From the IMG/VR virus record IMGVR_UViG_3300042945_002352, positions 1-32,499 of that record: a DNA stretch of 32,499 nt. One strand, given 5' to 3'. Of this stretch, positions 1,781 through 10,441 are shown piece by piece (within the stretch, counting starts at the first letter, position 1; every line of letters starts with the position of its first letter). Both the position numbers and the translations under genes were made by a program. The notes beneath the pieces are model-generated. The model ran no database searches. It worked only from the letters and a program-made list of their open reading frames with translations, and was not told where the DNA came from. Source of the DNA: a virus.

Positions 1781-3070
1781 TTACGCGCCCAGCTTGACGT
1801 TCGCGTTGAAGCCAGGGGCGTTGCACCCAAGCTGCGCGTAGCTGACGACGCGGAGTTCGGCGGCATCGCTGTTGTAGACGCGGAGCATCTCAAGCCCGTC
1901 CGCGTACTTGGCGATGTGCGGCGCCGGCCCCAGCGAGTACAGCTTCCAGGTGTCCATCTGGAGCAGGAACGCCGTCTTGGCCGGGCAGGAGCGGTCCGGG
2001 AACACCTTGATCTGGCCGGCGGCGCCGTTGATCAGGATGCCGGGGTAGTACAGCTTCGCAGGGCCATCGAAGCTGATGTACTGCGCCTTGCTGCCAAGCG
2101 ACTTCTCAAGCGCGGCGTAGCTGGCGAAGTTGGTGATGCACACGTCCGGGTTACCACCCTCGCGAGCCACCAGCAGCGAGCCGTCGATGAGGGCTTCCTC
2201 AATCGACTGCGCCGAGCCGTCGTAGCGCACGCCGCCGAGGCGGGTCGGGTCGACCGAGCGGTCAACACCGAAGAACGCGCTGGAGGTCGGGGTAGTCTGC
2301 GGAACCCAAGCCGACAGACCCTTCAGAGCCAGGCTGTAATCACCCTGGACGTTCAGCGTATCAAGAGCGGACGCTGCCCAGCTACCAAGGCCCGCGCCAG
2401 CAACGCCGCCCATCGAGCCGGACACCTGTACAACGCCGGTGGTGCGGTTCACGGCAACAACGTAAGCCGGGCCACCCGTCCGCAGCGTGCCGGTCGAGGG
2501 GTCGCGGGCCTCCAAGGTCATGTTGACCTCAAAGTTGACCACGTCCGAAGCATTGGTCAGCACGATGTTGCCAAGGGTGCTGGACGCGCCAATAACGCCA
2601 ATCGAGCCCGTGCCGTCGCGGAAGAGCTGCGTGGCAAGGCTGTTGGTCAGGGCGCGGATAGCGCCGTCGATGACCACGGTGGCGCCGTTGATGAACGCCA
2701 TCTTGTCGGTCTTCGACGCCAGCATCGTCTGGTTGTCGATCTGCGCGATGCTGTAGTTCGACGCGCGGGTCAGGGCGAACGACTCAACCGTGGCCGCAGT
2801 CTGGTTGCCCTGCGCCGACGAGAAGGTGGCGCTGCGGCCCTGCGAGGTGTTCACGATGAGGGGGATCGGCATGTACTTGCCGCCGAACTCCTCCATCTTG
2901 GGAACCATCGCCAAGAAGGGGTTGTTCTTGTAGACCAGGTTGGCAATCTTCTGGTCGTCATAAAGCTCCTTGAGCGCCGCGTTGGCAGCGCCAAGGTCGA
3001 ACGAGAACGACGGGCCGCCCGTCTGATTCAGAGCGGGGGTCGGGGGAGTACCGGGTCCGGGCCAAGACAT
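1781..3070 (-). CDS. Major capsid protein
   Basis: This 429-residue protein forms the icosahedral shell. I place the start at the ATG at 3070 (MSWPGPG), preceded by TAGGAAC; an upstream ATG at 3100 has no ribosome site. The first 25 residues are Pro/Gly-rich, followed by LKELYDDQKIANLVYKNNPFL and a region rich in Ser, Thr, Asn and Ala. This N-terminal pattern and the Gly/Asn-rich body are typical of phage capsid subunits that assemble on a separate scaffold. Gene order portal, scaffold, capsid, adaptor supports the call strongly. No protease gene was seen, so shell maturation may proceed without cleavage. Confidence 0.87.
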   Translation of the reverse strand: MSWPGPGTPPTPALNQTGGPSFSFDLGAANAALKELYDDQKIANLVYKNNPFLAMVPKMEEFGGKYMPIPLIVNTSQGRSATFSSAQGNQTAATVESFALTRASNYSIAQIDNQTMLASKTDKMAFINGATVVIDGAIRALTNSLATQLFRDGTGSIGVIGASSTLGNIVLTNASDVVNFEVNMTLEARDPSTGTLRTGGPAYVVAVNRTTGVVQVSGSMGGVAGAGLGSWAASALDTLNVQGDYSLALKGLSAWVPQTTPTSSAFFGVDRSVDPTRLGGVRYDGSAQSIEEALIDGSLLVAREGGNPDVCITNFASYAALEKSLGSKAQYISFDGPAKLYYPGILINGAAGQIKVFPDRSCPAKTAFLLQMDTWKLYSLGPAPHIAKYADGLEMLRVYNSDAAELRVVSYAQLGCNAPGFNANVKLGA

Positions 3071-3083
3071 GGGAGTTCCTACC

Positions 3084-3098
3084 GCGTGCTTTGCACGC
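3084..3098 (-). promoter_or_regulatory. Hairpin in the capsid 5' leader
   Basis: GCGTGC and GCACGC form a perfect 6-bp stem with a three-base loop. On the mRNA it lies just before the capsid ribosome site. It could stabilise the mRNA 5' end or tune translation. The rest of the 121-base gap between scaffold and capsid genes shows no clear promoter. Confidence 0.45.
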
Positions 3099-3191
3099 AA
3101 AGAGTCGATTTACCCCGCACCATGCGAGGCAAAAGGAAAGACGAATTGGTCTTACTGTGATTTGCGCGTAACTCGCGCTATGGGCGTGTGG

Positions 3192-4082
3192 TTACCGACC
3201 CTCTAACCGAGCAAGAGCGGCTGCAACCCGGTCCGCATCAGTACGCGGTCGCTGCGGGCTTCCAGTCGCTGCTGCCGTCAGGTCGTTGCTCAACGTTGGT
3301 CCCGACCTCGGGACGGACGCGGCAACTGGCGCCTGCGGTGAGGCCACACTCTGCTTCGCTGCAAACTTCTTGGTCCGCTGCGCTTGCTGCGCCAGCTCCT
3401 CAAGGTGCTCTTCAACCATCTTGGCGGCCTCTGGAATAGCAAGGACTTTGCCTGATTGATTGAATGCTTCCTCGATAACCTGATACACGAGATTATCGGC
3501 ACCGTAAAGCGCCGTCAACTCGTAAGTTTCAGAATGTTGCTTGACGTATTCCGATACCTCGCCACGGAACTGCTCGATGATTTGCTGCTGCTCCTTGGCG
3601 GCCATCTCCTCGGCAGCGCGGCGTGCAGCCTCGCGCTCCGACTGGGACTGCTTCTTGAACTCCTCAAGTTCCTGCCGAAGCGAAACAACCTCAAGCGACG
3701 GGGTCGGCTTGTTGTCGTTCATCATGTATTCTGTAATCTGCTCGTAGCTTAGGCCCAACGACTTTAGCGCCTCCAGCGGGTTGAGCGCAGCCTGCCGACG
3801 CAAATCTTGGAAAGCCTTGACCTCTTCGGCCTGCCGGGCAATCTCGGCCTGCTGCTGCCGGATGGCCTGCTGCTTTCGGTAGACCTCGGCCTCTTTCCTG
3901 GCCAGCGCCGCAAAACGCTCCGAGTTACGCTCCTTAGGCTGCTCCGGTGCGGGCTCCGCGGCTAGTGGTGCCTCTACGGCGGGCGCCTCTGCGGCAGCGC
4001 CCTGCACCACCTCGGCGGCGGTCGGCATTTGCGGCTGGGTCGCTCCCAGCATCATGTTGGTCGGCATACCTTCAACGCTCAT
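3192..4082 (-). CDS. Capsid scaffolding protein
   Basis: This 296-residue protein starts at an ATG behind AAGGAGT. The first 50 residues are Ala/Pro/Glu-rich and disordered. Residues about 52-100 and 125-185 are long charged helices rich in Glu, Gln, Lys and Arg, predicted coiled coil, and the C-terminus is basic (PRTDADRVAAALARLEGR). A highly charged helical protein encoded between portal and capsid is the standard signature of a phage scaffold, which guides procapsid assembly and then leaves. No protease motif is visible. The call rests on composition and gene order. Confidence 0.85.
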   Translation of the reverse strand: MSVEGMPTNMMLGATQPQMPTAAEVVQGAAAEAPAVEAPLAAEPAPEQPKERNSERFAALARKEAEVYRKQQAIRQQQAEIARQAEEVKAFQDLRRQAALNPLEALKSLGLSYEQITEYMMNDNKPTPSLEVVSLRQELEEFKKQSQSEREAARRAAEEMAAKEQQQIIEQFRGEVSEYVKQHSETYELTALYGADNLVYQVIEEAFNQSGKVLAIPEAAKMVEEHLEELAQQAQRTKKFAAKQSVASPQAPVAASVPRSGPTLSNDLTAAATGSPQRPRTDADRVAAALARLEGR

Positions 4083-6571: not shown

Positions 6572-8070
6572 TCTTCGCTCCAGACCGACATTTGCTGGTC
6601 TTGATAGCGGCGCTCTTCCAGTTGCCGCTCAAGCTGCCTCTCTAGTTCGGTCTCGTACTCCAGAATCATCCACTCCGGCTCAGACTTACCGGCACGCAAG
6701 CCGTTTTGCTGGTGTCCACTTAGCCATTGGTAACAATGCCTCCACGCATAGAGCATAGAATCCGCACAATGGTTAGCGCATGACGGGTGCTCTTCGCGCC
6801 TGGGTAACGACCGTTCATCCCACACCAGGCCCTGCAACTCCTCTATCAGCGGCGCAGCGGTCTTGCGGTGCAGCTTGACGTACCCGCTGATGAAGTCGCC
6901 GTTCATAATTTCAATGAAGTCGGCCTTGCCCTGCTTCTGTGCGGGAGTGAGCGGGATGTCGTGGCGACGACGTATCTCCTCGACCGCCTGTTTGTTGGCG
7001 TTGTCGATGATGATGCTGTCGAACTGAAACCGGCTCATTAGCTTGTGCGTCCGGTCCGCCACCTCGGTGATGTCGCAGCCCTGCTTCTTGTCGGCGCCCA
7101 GCACATACAGGGTGCGGTCACCGTCACGATACGCGCACACCACCCAGGCGGTGGGGTCGTTGAAGCCGAGGTCGATGCCCAGGACGTAGCGCCAGCGGTT
7201 GTTCGCCTTGAGCGTCGGCAGCTCCTCGAACACATTTCGGCTGCTGTCAAAGCGATAGACCAGCTTGCTGTCGTCCACCACCCACTTGCCCAGGTAGTGC
7301 TGCTGAAACAACGGCGTCTGCTCGATGCTGGGGTTCGCCAACTTCAAGTCTTCAATCTCCGCTCGCCAGTTGTCGGCCATGCGGGGATTCTCAAACGCGG
7401 TCCAGCGGTGACAAGACCAACCCATCTTCTCCCAGCGTCCAGGAGTACTGGGGTCCTGTCCAGCAGTCAGGTCAAAGAACAAACCCCGCTTCATGTTGCC
7501 GGGGGTGCCAATCATGGCAATCGTGCCACCGTAGTCGGCGGTAGCCGGCTTCAAGATACCGTAGACCATCTCGTTCAAATCCACGTTGTAGGAAGCGGCC
7601 TCGTCCACCACCACCATCTTGAACTTCTGGCCGAGGGCCTTGTCCTTTTCCTGCTCGTCGGCGTCCATGCCGAGTAGGTAGATGATGCTGCCGTTCGGGA
7701 GCGTGCAGGACAACTCCGTCTCATTGAACCGACATTGCAGCCCCTGCTCGCGGTCGATGGCTTTGAGGATGTCCTTCCAGAGAATGCGCTTGGCCGAGGC
7801 ACGGGTGAGCGCCACATACAGACAGGAGACGCCGGGGTTGTAGTAAGCCTCGCGCAGCAGCATCAGGCCGGCGGCGTAAGACTTTCCTGCGCGACGGGTG
7901 CAAAGCGCGGCCTTCAGTCGAGCGGGGTCGTCAATGAACGCCGTCTGACACCGGGCACCGGGGTCGACAAACTTCGGCTCCTTCTTCTCGGCAGCTATCA
8001 GCGCAAAAAACTCCGACCTTTCAGCCGGTGTCATTTTGGCAAGAAGCGCCTCGATTTCGGCTGGAGTCAT
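6568..8070 (-). CDS. terL: Terminase large subunit (packaging ATPase and nuclease)
   Basis: This 500-residue enzyme cuts concatemeric DNA and pumps it into the procapsid through the portal. The ATPase domain has a Walker A (CTRRAGKS, 57-64), Walker B with catalytic Glu (MVVVDE, 152-157) and coupling motif (AMIGTPG, 185-191). The C-terminal RNase H-like nuclease shows LGIDLGFND (Asp300), IIIDNANK (Asp356) and HCADSMLYA (Asp437), matching the expected acidic triad. The start overlaps the methyltransferase stop as ATGA. The small subunit is not adjacent; it is encoded at 14,369-14,785. Confidence 0.95.
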   Translation of the reverse strand: MTPAEIEALLAKMTPAERSEFFALIAAEKKEPKFVDPGARCQTAFIDDPARLKAALCTRRAGKSYAAGLMLLREAYYNPGVSCLYVALTRASAKRILWKDILKAIDREQGLQCRFNETELSCTLPNGSIIYLLGMDADEQEKDKALGQKFKMVVVDEAASYNVDLNEMVYGILKPATADYGGTIAMIGTPGNMKRGLFFDLTAGQDPSTPGRWEKMGWSCHRWTAFENPRMADNWRAEIEDLKLANPSIEQTPLFQQHYLGKWVVDDSKLVYRFDSSRNVFEELPTLKANNRWRYVLGIDLGFNDPTAWVVCAYRDGDRTLYVLGADKKQGCDITEVADRTHKLMSRFQFDSIIIDNANKQAVEEIRRRHDIPLTPAQKQGKADFIEIMNGDFISGYVKLHRKTAAPLIEELQGLVWDERSLPRREEHPSCANHCADSMLYAWRHCYQWLSGHQQNGLRAGKSEPEWMILEYETELERQLERQLEERRYQDQQMSVWSEE

Positions 8071-10382
8071 GCCGGCGTCAACTCCATTTGCGCGGGCTGC
8101 TGCTTGATTGCGTGTTCTATCCGCGCCGTGGCGATGGCGTGATATTCCGGCTCACGCTCAATGCCGACGAAACGGAAGCCCTGCTGCATCGCCGCTACGC
8201 CGGTCGTGCCGCTGCCGGTGAACGGGTCGAGGACGACGCCGCCGGGCGGGGTGACGAGGCGCACCAGCCATTCCATAAGGGCGACGGGCTTGACGGTCGG
8301 ATGGCTTGCCTTCTGGCCCTCGTTCAGTCCGCGCTCCCGCTCCGACCGGCTGGCCTTGGCTTGATAGCGGAACACGGGGAAGAAGCGGGAGGCGCCGCCA
8401 CCAAAATCCTCCGGCCACACGCCGATAGCATTGCCACCGCGCCCCATGCCCAATCCGTCGCGGTTCCCGCCCATACGACCTGCGCGCTGAGGCTTCGGCT
8501 TCGCGATTCCGCTCTGCCTATCCATCTCCGCGACCGCGCAATCCTCGGCGCAGGCTTCGCCGCACTCGGGGGTGTGGGAGAGGAGGAGGTTCGGGGGCCA
8601 GCGACCGGCAGGGCTACTCAACGCTTCCGCGAACGGACGGCCTCGTGCTTGCGTCCACGCATCGTCCGCAAAGCTGTTTTCGGACCCCATGCCTCGCGGC
8701 TGACTCCACTTTAGCTGACCACCCATTCCCACTCGGCATCCGTCGATGTTTAGCACCCCCGTGTTGTGTTCCAGCACGTTCGCGGCGACGGTGCCGACGA
8801 GAGGCTTGCGAGCGACAACGACCGGCTCATGTGCTGGCTTGAGGGCCGTCCCCCAACCTTCCCACTCCTTTGCGGCGTCGGTGGCAGGAGCGGATTCATC
8901 GCGAAACCCTCCGTGCGCGTCGCCGTAGGTGCTGCCTTGCGCACCCTCGCCGCGACGCTCTGCGTTGCCGTTGCGCGTGGGAACCAACATTCGGATACGC
9001 TCCGCTCCCGCCGCCTTGTCTATGGCCTTGCTGACATCCAGACTTTTCGGGAATCCGCTGTTTCCCGTCACGAAAAGTTTGCCGTTCCGACGAGCGACGA
9101 AAGCTCCAGTTGGCACCTTCACGCACCAGACTGTTCCGGTGTAGTGAAACGGCGTCACCCTCGCCAGAGAGGCGACGGTGAACCCTTCGCCTCGTACAGC
9201 TTGTGATCCCGATTCGTGGCAAATAGCATGAGGTTCGACGGCGCGTTGTTTCGTGTGTTGTGGTCGATGTGATGAACCGCTTCCGTCCGAGTCAGGCAGC
9301 GCCCCAGCGCCATTGCCACCACTAGCCGATGCTCCATGACGTAGCCGTCCTTCCTCGCCATCTCCGTGAACGCCGGGGGGCATCGAACGTACTTCGGTCC
9401 GATGTAGTTCCCCTTGTCTCTCTTGAAAGTCGCCCCACCCTTCCATGCCGGATTGTTCGCTCCAGACATCTTCTGCCGATACGTCTCGCGGCTTGTTTCC
9501 GTCCATGCCTCGCGGCCCTTGTGCGCGTGCTTCGCCAACTCCGCGCCTCGTATCAAGCCGTTGCACCGACGAGAGCAAGTCGGTCGCGCCACCTTCCGAA
9601 TCCACGCTCTCAGCTTCCACGCTTCCGTTCCGCACGCCGCACACTTCATTAACACCAGCCCTGCTCGCTGCTCTTTCGGCTTCTTCGTCCGGGGCGCTCG
9701 TAGTTGATTCTCCAAGCAGGACGCGCAGAAGCGATTCCGTACTGCTTGCGTTCGGTTGTGACACGCGAAGGGCGTCGAGCAGGCTTGGCAAGGCTTCCAG
9801 AACGGGTACTCGCGCTTCCTGTTCCCGTGCCACTTCCTCGGCAACGGCGAACTCCCACCGCCCGTTTCGCTGGACGAGGCAGCGGTGATTCCGGCTGACG
9901 ATCTGGTCGGTGTCTGCGGATTCGATTCGGTAGGCAGTGTCGTCGTAGTCGTAGACGTAAAGCTGCTGGATGGGGAGCCATGCGTAGGTATCATGCTTCG
10001 CATCATAGCATAATGCGAGACTTCCTTCCGTGGCCTTACTGTAATGCACCCACTCCCCGTCGATGAGGACTTCGGTGTCCTCGCTCAAGCACCCGTATAC
10101 CCAATGCAATGAGTCGCGGATTTCAAACCCCGCGTCCTCGATGGCAACGGCCATTCGGTGATAGGTACGGGTGCCGCCGAAGGCGAGGAGATGACCGCCG
10201 GGCTTGAGGACGCGCAAGGCTTCGGTCCAGAGCGCGACGTTATAGGCAATGCCGGAAGCATCCCAACGCTTACCCATGAAGCCAAGCTCATAGGGCGGGT
10301 CGGTCACCACGGCATCCACCGAAGCGTCGGGCAGCGTCTTGAGGACTTCTAGGCAATCGCCCAGGTGTAACTGATACGTCAC
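8067..10382 (-). CDS. DNA methyltransferase (beta class) interrupted by an intein
   Basis: This is a 771-codon frame. Without the intein (residues 98-441) the protein is 427 residues. The catalytic motif IV TDPPYELG (27-34) comes first, and the AdoMet motif I DPFTGSGTTG lies near the C-terminus (about 719-728) after HPTVKPVALMEWL. That is the permuted order of beta-class N6-adenine or N4-cytosine methyltransferases; DPPY favours adenine. The intein splits the conserved WVYG/SGFPKS junction. The probable role is protecting phage DNA from host restriction, alongside the ArdA-like protein. The target site cannot be read from sequence. It is coupled to the terminase gene by ATGA. Confidence 0.93.
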   Translation of the reverse strand: MTYQLHLGDCLEVLKTLPDASVDAVVTDPPYELGFMGKRWDASGIAYNVALWTEALRVLKPGGHLLAFGGTRTYHRMAVAIEDAGFEIRDSLHWVYGCLSEDTEVLIDGEWVHYSKATEGSLALCYDAKHDTYAWLPIQQLYVYDYDDTAYRIESADTDQIVSRNHRCLVQRNGRWEFAVAEEVAREQEARVPVLEALPSLLDALRVSQPNASSTESLLRVLLGESTTSAPDEEAERAASRAGVNEVCGVRNGSVEAESVDSEGGATDLLSSVQRLDTRRGVGEARAQGPRGMDGNKPRDVSAEDVWSEQSGMEGWGDFQERQGELHRTEVRSMPPGVHGDGEEGRLRHGASASGGNGAGALPDSDGSGSSHRPQHTKQRAVEPHAICHESGSQAVRGEGFTVASLARVTPFHYTGTVWCVKVPTGAFVARRNGKLFVTGNSGFPKSLDVSKAIDKAAGAERIRMLVPTRNGNAERRGEGAQGSTYGDAHGGFRDESAPATDAAKEWEGWGTALKPAHEPVVVARKPLVGTVAANVLEHNTGVLNIDGCRVGMGGQLKWSQPRGMGSENSFADDAWTQARGRPFAEALSSPAGRWPPNLLLSHTPECGEACAEDCAVAEMDRQSGIAKPKPQRAGRMGGNRDGLGMGRGGNAIGVWPEDFGGGASRFFPVFRYQAKASRSERERGLNEGQKASHPTVKPVALMEWLVRLVTPPGGVVLDPFTGSGTTGVAAMQQGFRFVGIEREPEYHAIATARIEHAIKQQPAQMELTPA
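9060..10091 (-). mobile_element. Intein inside the methyltransferase
   Basis: The 344-residue intein begins with Cys98 (CLSEDTEVL, splicing block A), has a block B-like IVSRNHRCLV with the expected His, and ends with block F/G residues VKVPTGAFVARRNGKLFVTGN before Ser442. The terminal Asn and the +1 Ser fit the splicing chemistry; Gly replaces the usual penultimate His. Joining Gly97 to Ser442 restores a normal methyltransferase. About 130 middle residues in this frame are low-complexity and lack any endonuclease motif, because the endonuclease is encoded here in another frame. Confidence 0.9.
9155..10006 (-). CDS. HNH homing endonuclease nested out of frame in the intein
   Basis: This frame is shifted +1 relative to the methyltransferase frame. 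Its recognisable part starts near 9,830: two zinc-type Cys pairs (CQAC, CASC), two more (CAAC, CSRRC), a NNPAWKGG segment, then an HNH core (DGYVMEHRLVVAMALGRCL, and HHIDHNTRNN at about 245-254 followed by PSNLMLF and DHKLYE). This is the HNH type found in phage mobile endonucleases. The true start is unknown; an ATG at 10,006 opens the frame but its first 55 or so residues look like a shadow of the intein, and an ATG just before KCAACG (about 9,649) is another choice. The stop lies 95 bases before the intein's end, so the gene fits exactly between the splicing domains. Confidence 0.82.
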   Translation of the reverse strand: MMRSMIPTHGSPSSSFTSTTTTTLPTESNPQTPTRSSAGITAASSSETGGGSSPLPRKWHGNRKREYPFWKPCQACSTPFACHNRTQAVRNRFCASCLENQLRAPRTKKPKEQRAGLVLMKCAACGTEAWKLRAWIRKVARPTCSRRCNGLIRGAELAKHAHKGREAWTETSRETYRQKMSGANNPAWKGGATFKRDKGNYIGPKYVRCPPAFTEMARKDGYVMEHRLVVAMALGRCLTRTEAVHHIDHNTRNNAPSNLMLFATNRDHKLYEAKGSPSPLWRG

Positions 10383-10441
10383 GTTTGCTCACTTTGCTGT
10401 GCTGTTTTGCTCGATACGTTAGGTAAAAGTTTTTACCTTAG

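Follow-up and report, generated by a model that had tools for sequence, protein, structure and literature searches.

Mobile inteins are, in the textbook description, single-chain elements that combine a splicing domain and a nuclease in one polypeptide. Among them are bifunctional inteins with an in-frame HNH endonuclease, according to PMC5050341, which cites Dalgaard et al. 1997. Hidden, out-of-frame HNH nucleases have been described in mycobacteriophage methylases as the ShiLan domain (Arsenault, Gosselin, Gogarten 2025, PMC11855218), whose kin include Applejack gp54/55 (PMC12613952). The ShiLan insert was proposed to remain in the methylase as a tolerated loop (PMC11855218). The locus analyzed here carries an HNH endonuclease gene nested out of frame inside an intein of a phage DNA methyltransferase (MTase). 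The original prediction, made from the letters of this DNA, knew of no described case of such nesting; that statement has to be withdrawn in part, since ShiLan is a comparable out-of-frame HNH of phage methylases, with the difference that it is not part of an intein (PMC11855218).

The locus lies on the minus strand of the window, by which we mean the whole 32,499-nucleotide stretch of viral DNA under analysis, which forms its own virus record. The genes around the MTase encode a terminase, a portal protein, Erf, an exonuclease and a DnaC-like loader, and by this gene content the context is that of a tailed phage. As predicted, the MTase frame is open for all 771 codons. The features of the locus are as follows.

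8067-10382, minus strand: open reading frame of a DNA methyltransferase (N6/N4 type), interrupted by the intein (771 codons open; Pfam PF01555, 7.5e-34; PHROGs phrog_67, 4.3e-82)
10092-10382, minus strand: N-extein (97 aa, C-terminal end ...HWVYG)
9060-10091, minus strand: intein (344 aa, Cys1 to Asn344; AF2 HINT fold, Foldseek, profile match)
9756-10091, minus strand: N-terminal splicing domain of the intein, residues 1-112, with blocks A and B (conservation; pLDDT ~97)
9882-9908, minus strand: intein block B, DQIVSRNHR (SxxH), with invariant H69, overlapped by the HNH frame (conservation; dual constraint)
9243-9749, minus strand: intein-frame linker, residues 115-283 (open; predicted to be disordered, pLDDT < 50 nearly throughout)
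9060-9206, minus strand: C-terminal splicing domain of the intein, residues 296-344, with blocks F and G, ending ...VWCVKVPTGAFVARRNGKLFVTGN (conservation; pLDDT 93-98)
9057-9059, minus strand: +1 Ser of the C-extein, SGFPKS (S and GFPK invariant among 20 aligned)
9155-10006, minus strand: HNH endonuclease open reading frame, +1 relative to the intein (283 aa; further in-frame ATGs at 10003 and 9994)
9158-9820, minus strand: conserved HNH protein, with two zinc-ribbon-like Cys4 clusters and the HNH nuclease domain (alignment; AF2 pLDDT 91.9)
9257-9280, minus strand: HNH core AVHHIDHN (sequence, alignment)

The intein in the MTase frame was confirmed at exactly the coordinates first proposed for it, 9060-10091: Cys1 is encoded at 10091, directly after ..HWVYG, and the last residues, ..FVTGN (9060), are followed by SGFPKS. 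When the splicing blocks were aligned over 45 divergent inteins, C1, Q63, V65, H69, R70, C323, T342, G343 and N344 were invariant. The N-terminal nucleophile Cys1 is thus present in 45/45 sequences, as is the C-terminal Asn344, and the +1 Ser is invariant in the 20 inteins aligned there. The T/S-x-x-H of block B is present as SRNH, with Ser replacing Thr in most of the 45, and the penultimate His of block G is absent, its position being held by Gly343 throughout. A penultimate His is usual in inteins without being strictly defining, and inteins that lack it are known; both this residue and the Thr position of block B vary among known inteins. AlphaFold2 predicted a HINT fold for the splicing halves with pLDDT ~97 over residues 1-112 and ~295-344, Foldseek searches with this model ranked inteins and hedgehog proteins first (6zgq, E 8.6e-5), and the intein profile matched the AceL NrdHF intein, whose structure has been solved, at 1.8e-8. 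By its blocks and predicted fold, 9060-10091 on the minus strand is a class 1 intein inside a phage DNA methyltransferase, and its anatomy suggests autocatalytic splicing. Insertions that lack splicing domains, of the ShiLan type and of the class II type described below, exist in the same kind of MTases, and the intein might likewise not splice, the MTase then tolerating the insert as a retained loop, as has been suggested for ShiLan. However, inserts of that sort would not be expected to keep both blocks and fold, and here all intein blocks are conserved across 45 divergent members, with invariant catalytic residues and a HINT fold predicted at pLDDT ~97; we consider a non-splicing insert very improbable. 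A group I or group II intron was also rejected, as no Rfam intron match was obtained up to E 1 over 8067-10400.

The HNH open reading frame lies wholly within the intein. A recognizable HNH with zinc Cys pairs and an HHIDHN motif had been predicted in the +1 frame, ending 95 bases before the intein end, and this was upheld in each respect: the frame encodes four Cys pairs and VHHIDHN, its stop codon is found 95 bases before the end of the intein, and Pfam HNH_3 matches it with 36.4 bits against a cut-off of 24.8. In the HNH alignment, H183 and N196 are invariant and H184, H187 and N192 nearly so. Compared with solved structures (VIA), the HNH model gave best but weak matches to I-HmuI (Z 5.4 over 80 residues) and I-PpoI (Z 3.6). 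Foldseek with the HNH model returned no significant match, a sequence search for HNH relatives among solved structures returned none, and a DNA-level search of named phages yielded no close relative. A plasmid search gave a single match, a distant free-standing HNH.

The out-of-frame arrangement is conserved far beyond the window. HNH homologues were collected from IMG/VR, genomes and phages. Among the viral HNH loci, only two are not enclosed by a longer open frame; in the others the phase is identical throughout. For the window locus, synonymous recoding of the HNH gene predicts ~6-8 stops in the intein frame, where 0 are observed; under either null, 0/400 recodings were free of stops. In the host frame of 71 distinct HNH loci taken together there are 0 stops, compared with 552 (permutation) to 798 (flank codon usage) expected, and the third frame of the same loci contains 756 compared with 554-681 expected and thus shows no avoidance. 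Ascertainment by the HNH was avoided in an independent census, whose queries were restricted to the N and C blocks of the intein. Within the bounds set by the search patterns and by IMG/VR content, this census recovered 92 distinct inteins whose N and C blocks share an open reading frame, 62 with an HNH and 30 without. The HNH is in the +1 phase in 62/62; relatives with the HNH in the intein frame, whose existence would speak against the arrangement, were looked for and none was found (0/62).

These counts bear on two explanations that need no dual coding, namely sequencing error or compensating indels on the one hand and chance openness on the other. An error is conceivable in a lone metagenomic contig, and compensating shifts had been put forward as one alternative. 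They are excluded by the identical phase in more than 60 distinct loci, the 62 inteins coming from many metagenomes, with MAGs and a 484-kb phage genome in addition; moreover, a 13.9-kb IMG/VR contig encodes an MTase protein identical to that of the window (100% match; this contig is L002 = L055 = L145, some of our locus numbers denoting one and the same contig). Chance openness, which had been judged unlikely at the outset, is rejected by the synonymous recoding. We therefore assign error and chance together a practically negligible probability.

Several individual loci deserve mention. The two exceptions to nesting are L081, in which the HNH is free-standing, and L119, in which it lies between two MTase halves; in the latter (2200-3400) the N-half stops just before the HNH and the C-half resumes in another frame, which may reflect a broken host gene, a split gene or an intron. 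The 484-kb genome of an uncultured phage (L135, LR756508.1, unannotated) shows that a huge phage can also carry a nested HNH intein. In a Cloacimonadota MAG (L142, 293-2458), a distant HNH relative is likewise nested at +1 in an open frame of 722 codons, though the MTase context differs.

We examined which frame is under selection in each region. In close pairs the HNH frame varies by codon position as expected under purifying selection (identities of 0.80/0.88/0.54 at positions 1/2/3 for L065/L076, for instance), and in the linker the amino-acid identity of the host frame is no higher than that of the meaningless third frame. A first null had suggested amino-acid selection on the intein-frame linker (Stouffer z 5.8), but only because it ignored the third-base memory of the replaced codons; against a matched null the excess was gone (0.013 in the host frame vs 0.010 in the third frame). 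The linker is the HNH gene, and in its intein-frame shadow the avoidance of stops is the one constraint detected. The picture around block B is different. From ~15 codons before block B onward, HNH-frame stops number 4 compared with 86 expected; upstream of this point no avoidance is seen, with 33 found and 25 expected. Among the census inteins, those with an HNH have 3 HNH-frame stops in the block B region compared with 83.5 expected. Among controls, DOD inteins and mini-inteins at the same site have 12 +1 stops vs 21.9 expected, a mild shortage of their own, and DOD inteins elsewhere have 14 vs 12.7. Around block B, the intein and HNH frames are both constrained. The proposal of selection on both frames consequently stands for the block B region and fails for the linker.

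We then considered how the HNH protein might be made. An in-frame start codon follows the last upstream stop in 46/46 inteins, and 19/46 have an ATG at a distance of 15 codons ahead of block B. An HNH-frame stop located 16-21 codons ahead of this block is directly followed by an ATG in 7/7 cases, compared with 14/38 elsewhere (p = 0.0026). Shine-Dalgarno pairing before the ATG is stronger than in recoded versions (Stouffer z -3.9, 19 loci), and a perfect AGGAGG precedes the HNH ATG in L075 and L083. For the window itself the HNH start is uncertain: the earlier ATGs at 10006, 10003 and 9994 have no well-spaced Shine-Dalgarno sequence, and GGAAGGAAG lies upstream at long spacing. The Shine-Dalgarno signal comes from 19 other loci. 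In the segment before the HNH ATG (10006-10020, minus strand), GGAAGGAAG is followed by ATGCTATGATG, a two-codon open reading frame whose TGA overlaps the HNH ATG. Termination-reinitiation at the window's HNH start is possible. Across loci, internal initiation appears to be the best-supported route to an HNH protein, to judge from the start codons, the Shine-Dalgarno sites and the sharp onset of stop avoidance. Ribosomal frameshifting, raised earlier as an alternative, would instead produce a fusion of the intein N-terminus and the HNH by programmed +1 slippage, with no independent initiation. It would predict the fixed +1 phase, and the HNH frame is indeed open upstream of its conserved part in many loci and, in the window, back to the intein start. 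Yet several loci have stops 16-21 codons before block B with an ATG right after, stops upstream of the HNH onset are not avoided, and Shine-Dalgarno pairing ahead of the HNH ATG exceeds what recoding predicts; each such fusion would also cost an unspliced MTase. We accordingly think frameshifting distinctly unlikely and favor separate expression of the HNH from dual-coding DNA, the reading originally offered, which the starts and Shine-Dalgarno sites support.

The same MTase site exists in other states. At the identical WVYG/SGFPKS boundary we found HNH-less inteins, including inteins with an in-frame LAGLIDADG-like nuclease and mini-inteins. Those of the DOD/LAGLIDADG-like kind at this codon boundary are L223, L248, L263, L281, L283, L285 and L289-L299; L223 matches PF14528 at 1.2e-8 and L248 weakly at 0.12, and 2/3 of the in-frame nucleases tested fall below the Pfam cut-off. 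Mini-inteins with an intact intein frame are present in L216, L260 and L297. Intein-free alleles exist as well: the joined exteins of the window align without gaps to the MTases of L024 and L025 (84% at the amino-acid level over 109 aa). A broken HNH frame in a kept intein, the other finding that could have spoken against the arrangement, was seen only in L172 (2221-2850), where the HNH is truncated, and in L087, where it has one stop. The intein frame is intact in both, as a homing cycle predicts. In a quick tree of the splicing domains, with SH-aLRT supports only, HNH inteins and DOD inteins separate and two mini-inteins fall inside the HNH group, which makes loss of the HNH, giving mini-inteins, likely. 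The splicing domain of L210 (the same intein as L078), which has its HNH at +1, is placed with the DOD inteins, where it has a long branch; a second acquisition of a nested HNH in L078/L210 is possible, but we are unsure of it.

Synonymous identity in the closest pairs is higher in the element than in the flanking MTase (for L107/L141, 0.74 in the HNH vs 0.47-0.51 in the exteins). The lower synonymous divergence of the element may come in part from dual coding and not from transfer; nevertheless, the raised identity, the empty sites and the loss forms fit homing. As read from these sequences, one MTase site in its empty, mini-intein, in-frame LAGLIDADG-type, out-of-frame HNH and decayed HNH states presents a full homing cycle. 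All HNH inteins found sit in one phage MTase family, and the HNH could for that reason be a nuclease that works with the MTase in a restriction-like or accessory role, nested by happenstance and unconnected with homing. Against this, the codon boundary at which the HNH element is inserted is also used by canonical LAGLIDADG-type inteins and by mini-inteins, close MTases lack the element, the mini-inteins nested in the HNH clade mark the HNH as dispensable, and its top structural matches, though weak, are the homing endonucleases I-HmuI and I-PpoI. We give the partner hypothesis little credence and retain the homing endonuclease.

The HNH family also occurs without an intein. In ~29 further loci, which we call class II (L091, L093, L094, L096-L100, L102, L104-L106, L108-L110, L118, L121-L129 and L139), an HNH of the same family and in the same +1 phase lies, in nearly all cases, in the MTase frame itself. 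The insertion point is just after SGFPKS(H/L)N, with no splicing blocks and no intein, and host-frame translation across the HNH again looks unselected. Cys pairs often flank the HNH in the class II host frame (FCGC ... CGRCGKP). In a quick HNH tree, class I, with the intein, and class II interleave, and strong branches force at least 2 switches. Phage Mantra gp64 (L136, 3001-3471) has a ShiLan insert at another MTase site with its HNH at +2; the phase is therefore not fixed across the wider HNH family. Out-of-frame insertion of HNH genes into phage MTases probably arose in several site and phase combinations. At WVYG/SGFPKS, the out-of-frame HNH is combined with what is by its anatomy a splicing intein.

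The dual-coding architecture, its conservation, the frame selected in each region and the coexisting site states are direct observations. To account for them, we propose, with high confidence, that the intein is mobile and that its homing endonuclease has a gene of its own, nested entirely in the +1 frame; splicing, cleavage and HNH expression are the inferred parts of this proposal. The MTase mRNA would be translated through the entire intein frame, the two intein ends would fold into a HINT domain, and the linker, a shadow translation of the HNH gene, would form a disordered loop. Self-excision of the intein, as its anatomy suggests, would then restore the MTase. Ribosomes would also start within the intein N-terminal region, before block B, yielding a separate HNH protein, as the starts, Shine-Dalgarno sites and onset of stop avoidance imply. 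This protein would cut intein-free MTase alleles at WVYG/SGFPKS, and repair would copy the element in, consistent with the empty sites, the patchiness and the decay forms. More broadly, and with somewhat less assurance, it is likely that these loci are representatives of widespread "overprinted" mobile inteins, in which two frames of one DNA, block B included, encode a splicing element and a homing endonuclease that is translated independently, and whose nuclease family switches between this intein-hosted state and naked out-of-frame insertion in the same MTases. If so, damage to the nuclease within the block B overlap would put at risk the splicing that the host gene needs. Dozens of phage inteins in which the nuclease gene is nested in a second frame, together with the alternative states of the same site, would offer a natural experiment on the reasons for which a mobile element overprints its nuclease, be it for decoupled expression, for keeping both frames open or, possibly, for slower loss. 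The arrangement would also account for host-frame annotations with long, disordered linkers of low conservation; the nuclease would escape an annotation that follows one frame only.

Compared with known systems, the window element combines familiar parts in an unusual way. Our literature search found no intein with an out-of-frame nuclease, and a preprint on actinobacteriophage inteins of non-canonical architecture, cited by the ShiLan paper, could describe one (bioRxiv 10.1101/2025.01.02.630785). With bifunctional HNH inteins, as far as PMC5050341 presents them, the element shares an HNH nuclease between splicing halves; in those inteins the nuclease forms one domain of the intein chain, whereas the window HNH has a gene to itself, in a different frame. 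Canonical LAGLIDADG (DOD) inteins such as L223, L248 and L285 share the site, related splicing domains and a nuclease between the halves, but they use one reading frame, and their avoidance of +1 stops near block B is weaker than in HNH inteins. Group I introns with HNH open reading frames of the I-HmuI type likewise carry a nuclease gene inside a self-splicing insertion in a phage gene; in contrast to these, splicing in the window would act on the protein, and the host frame is open throughout. The closest parallel is ShiLan, also a zinc-ribbon HNH out of frame in a phage DNA methylase, with an open host frame and a patchy, homing-like distribution. The two HNHs are homologous (Mantra gp64 insert, 28% identity, E 1e-10). 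ShiLan has no splicing domains, however, and the Mantra insert lies downstream, after GTALKPSHEPVVVARKP, with its HNH at +2, whereas the window HNH is at +1 at WVYG/SGFPKS and overlaps block B. Through this comparison the puzzling insertions of the ShiLan type would find their place in a far larger family.
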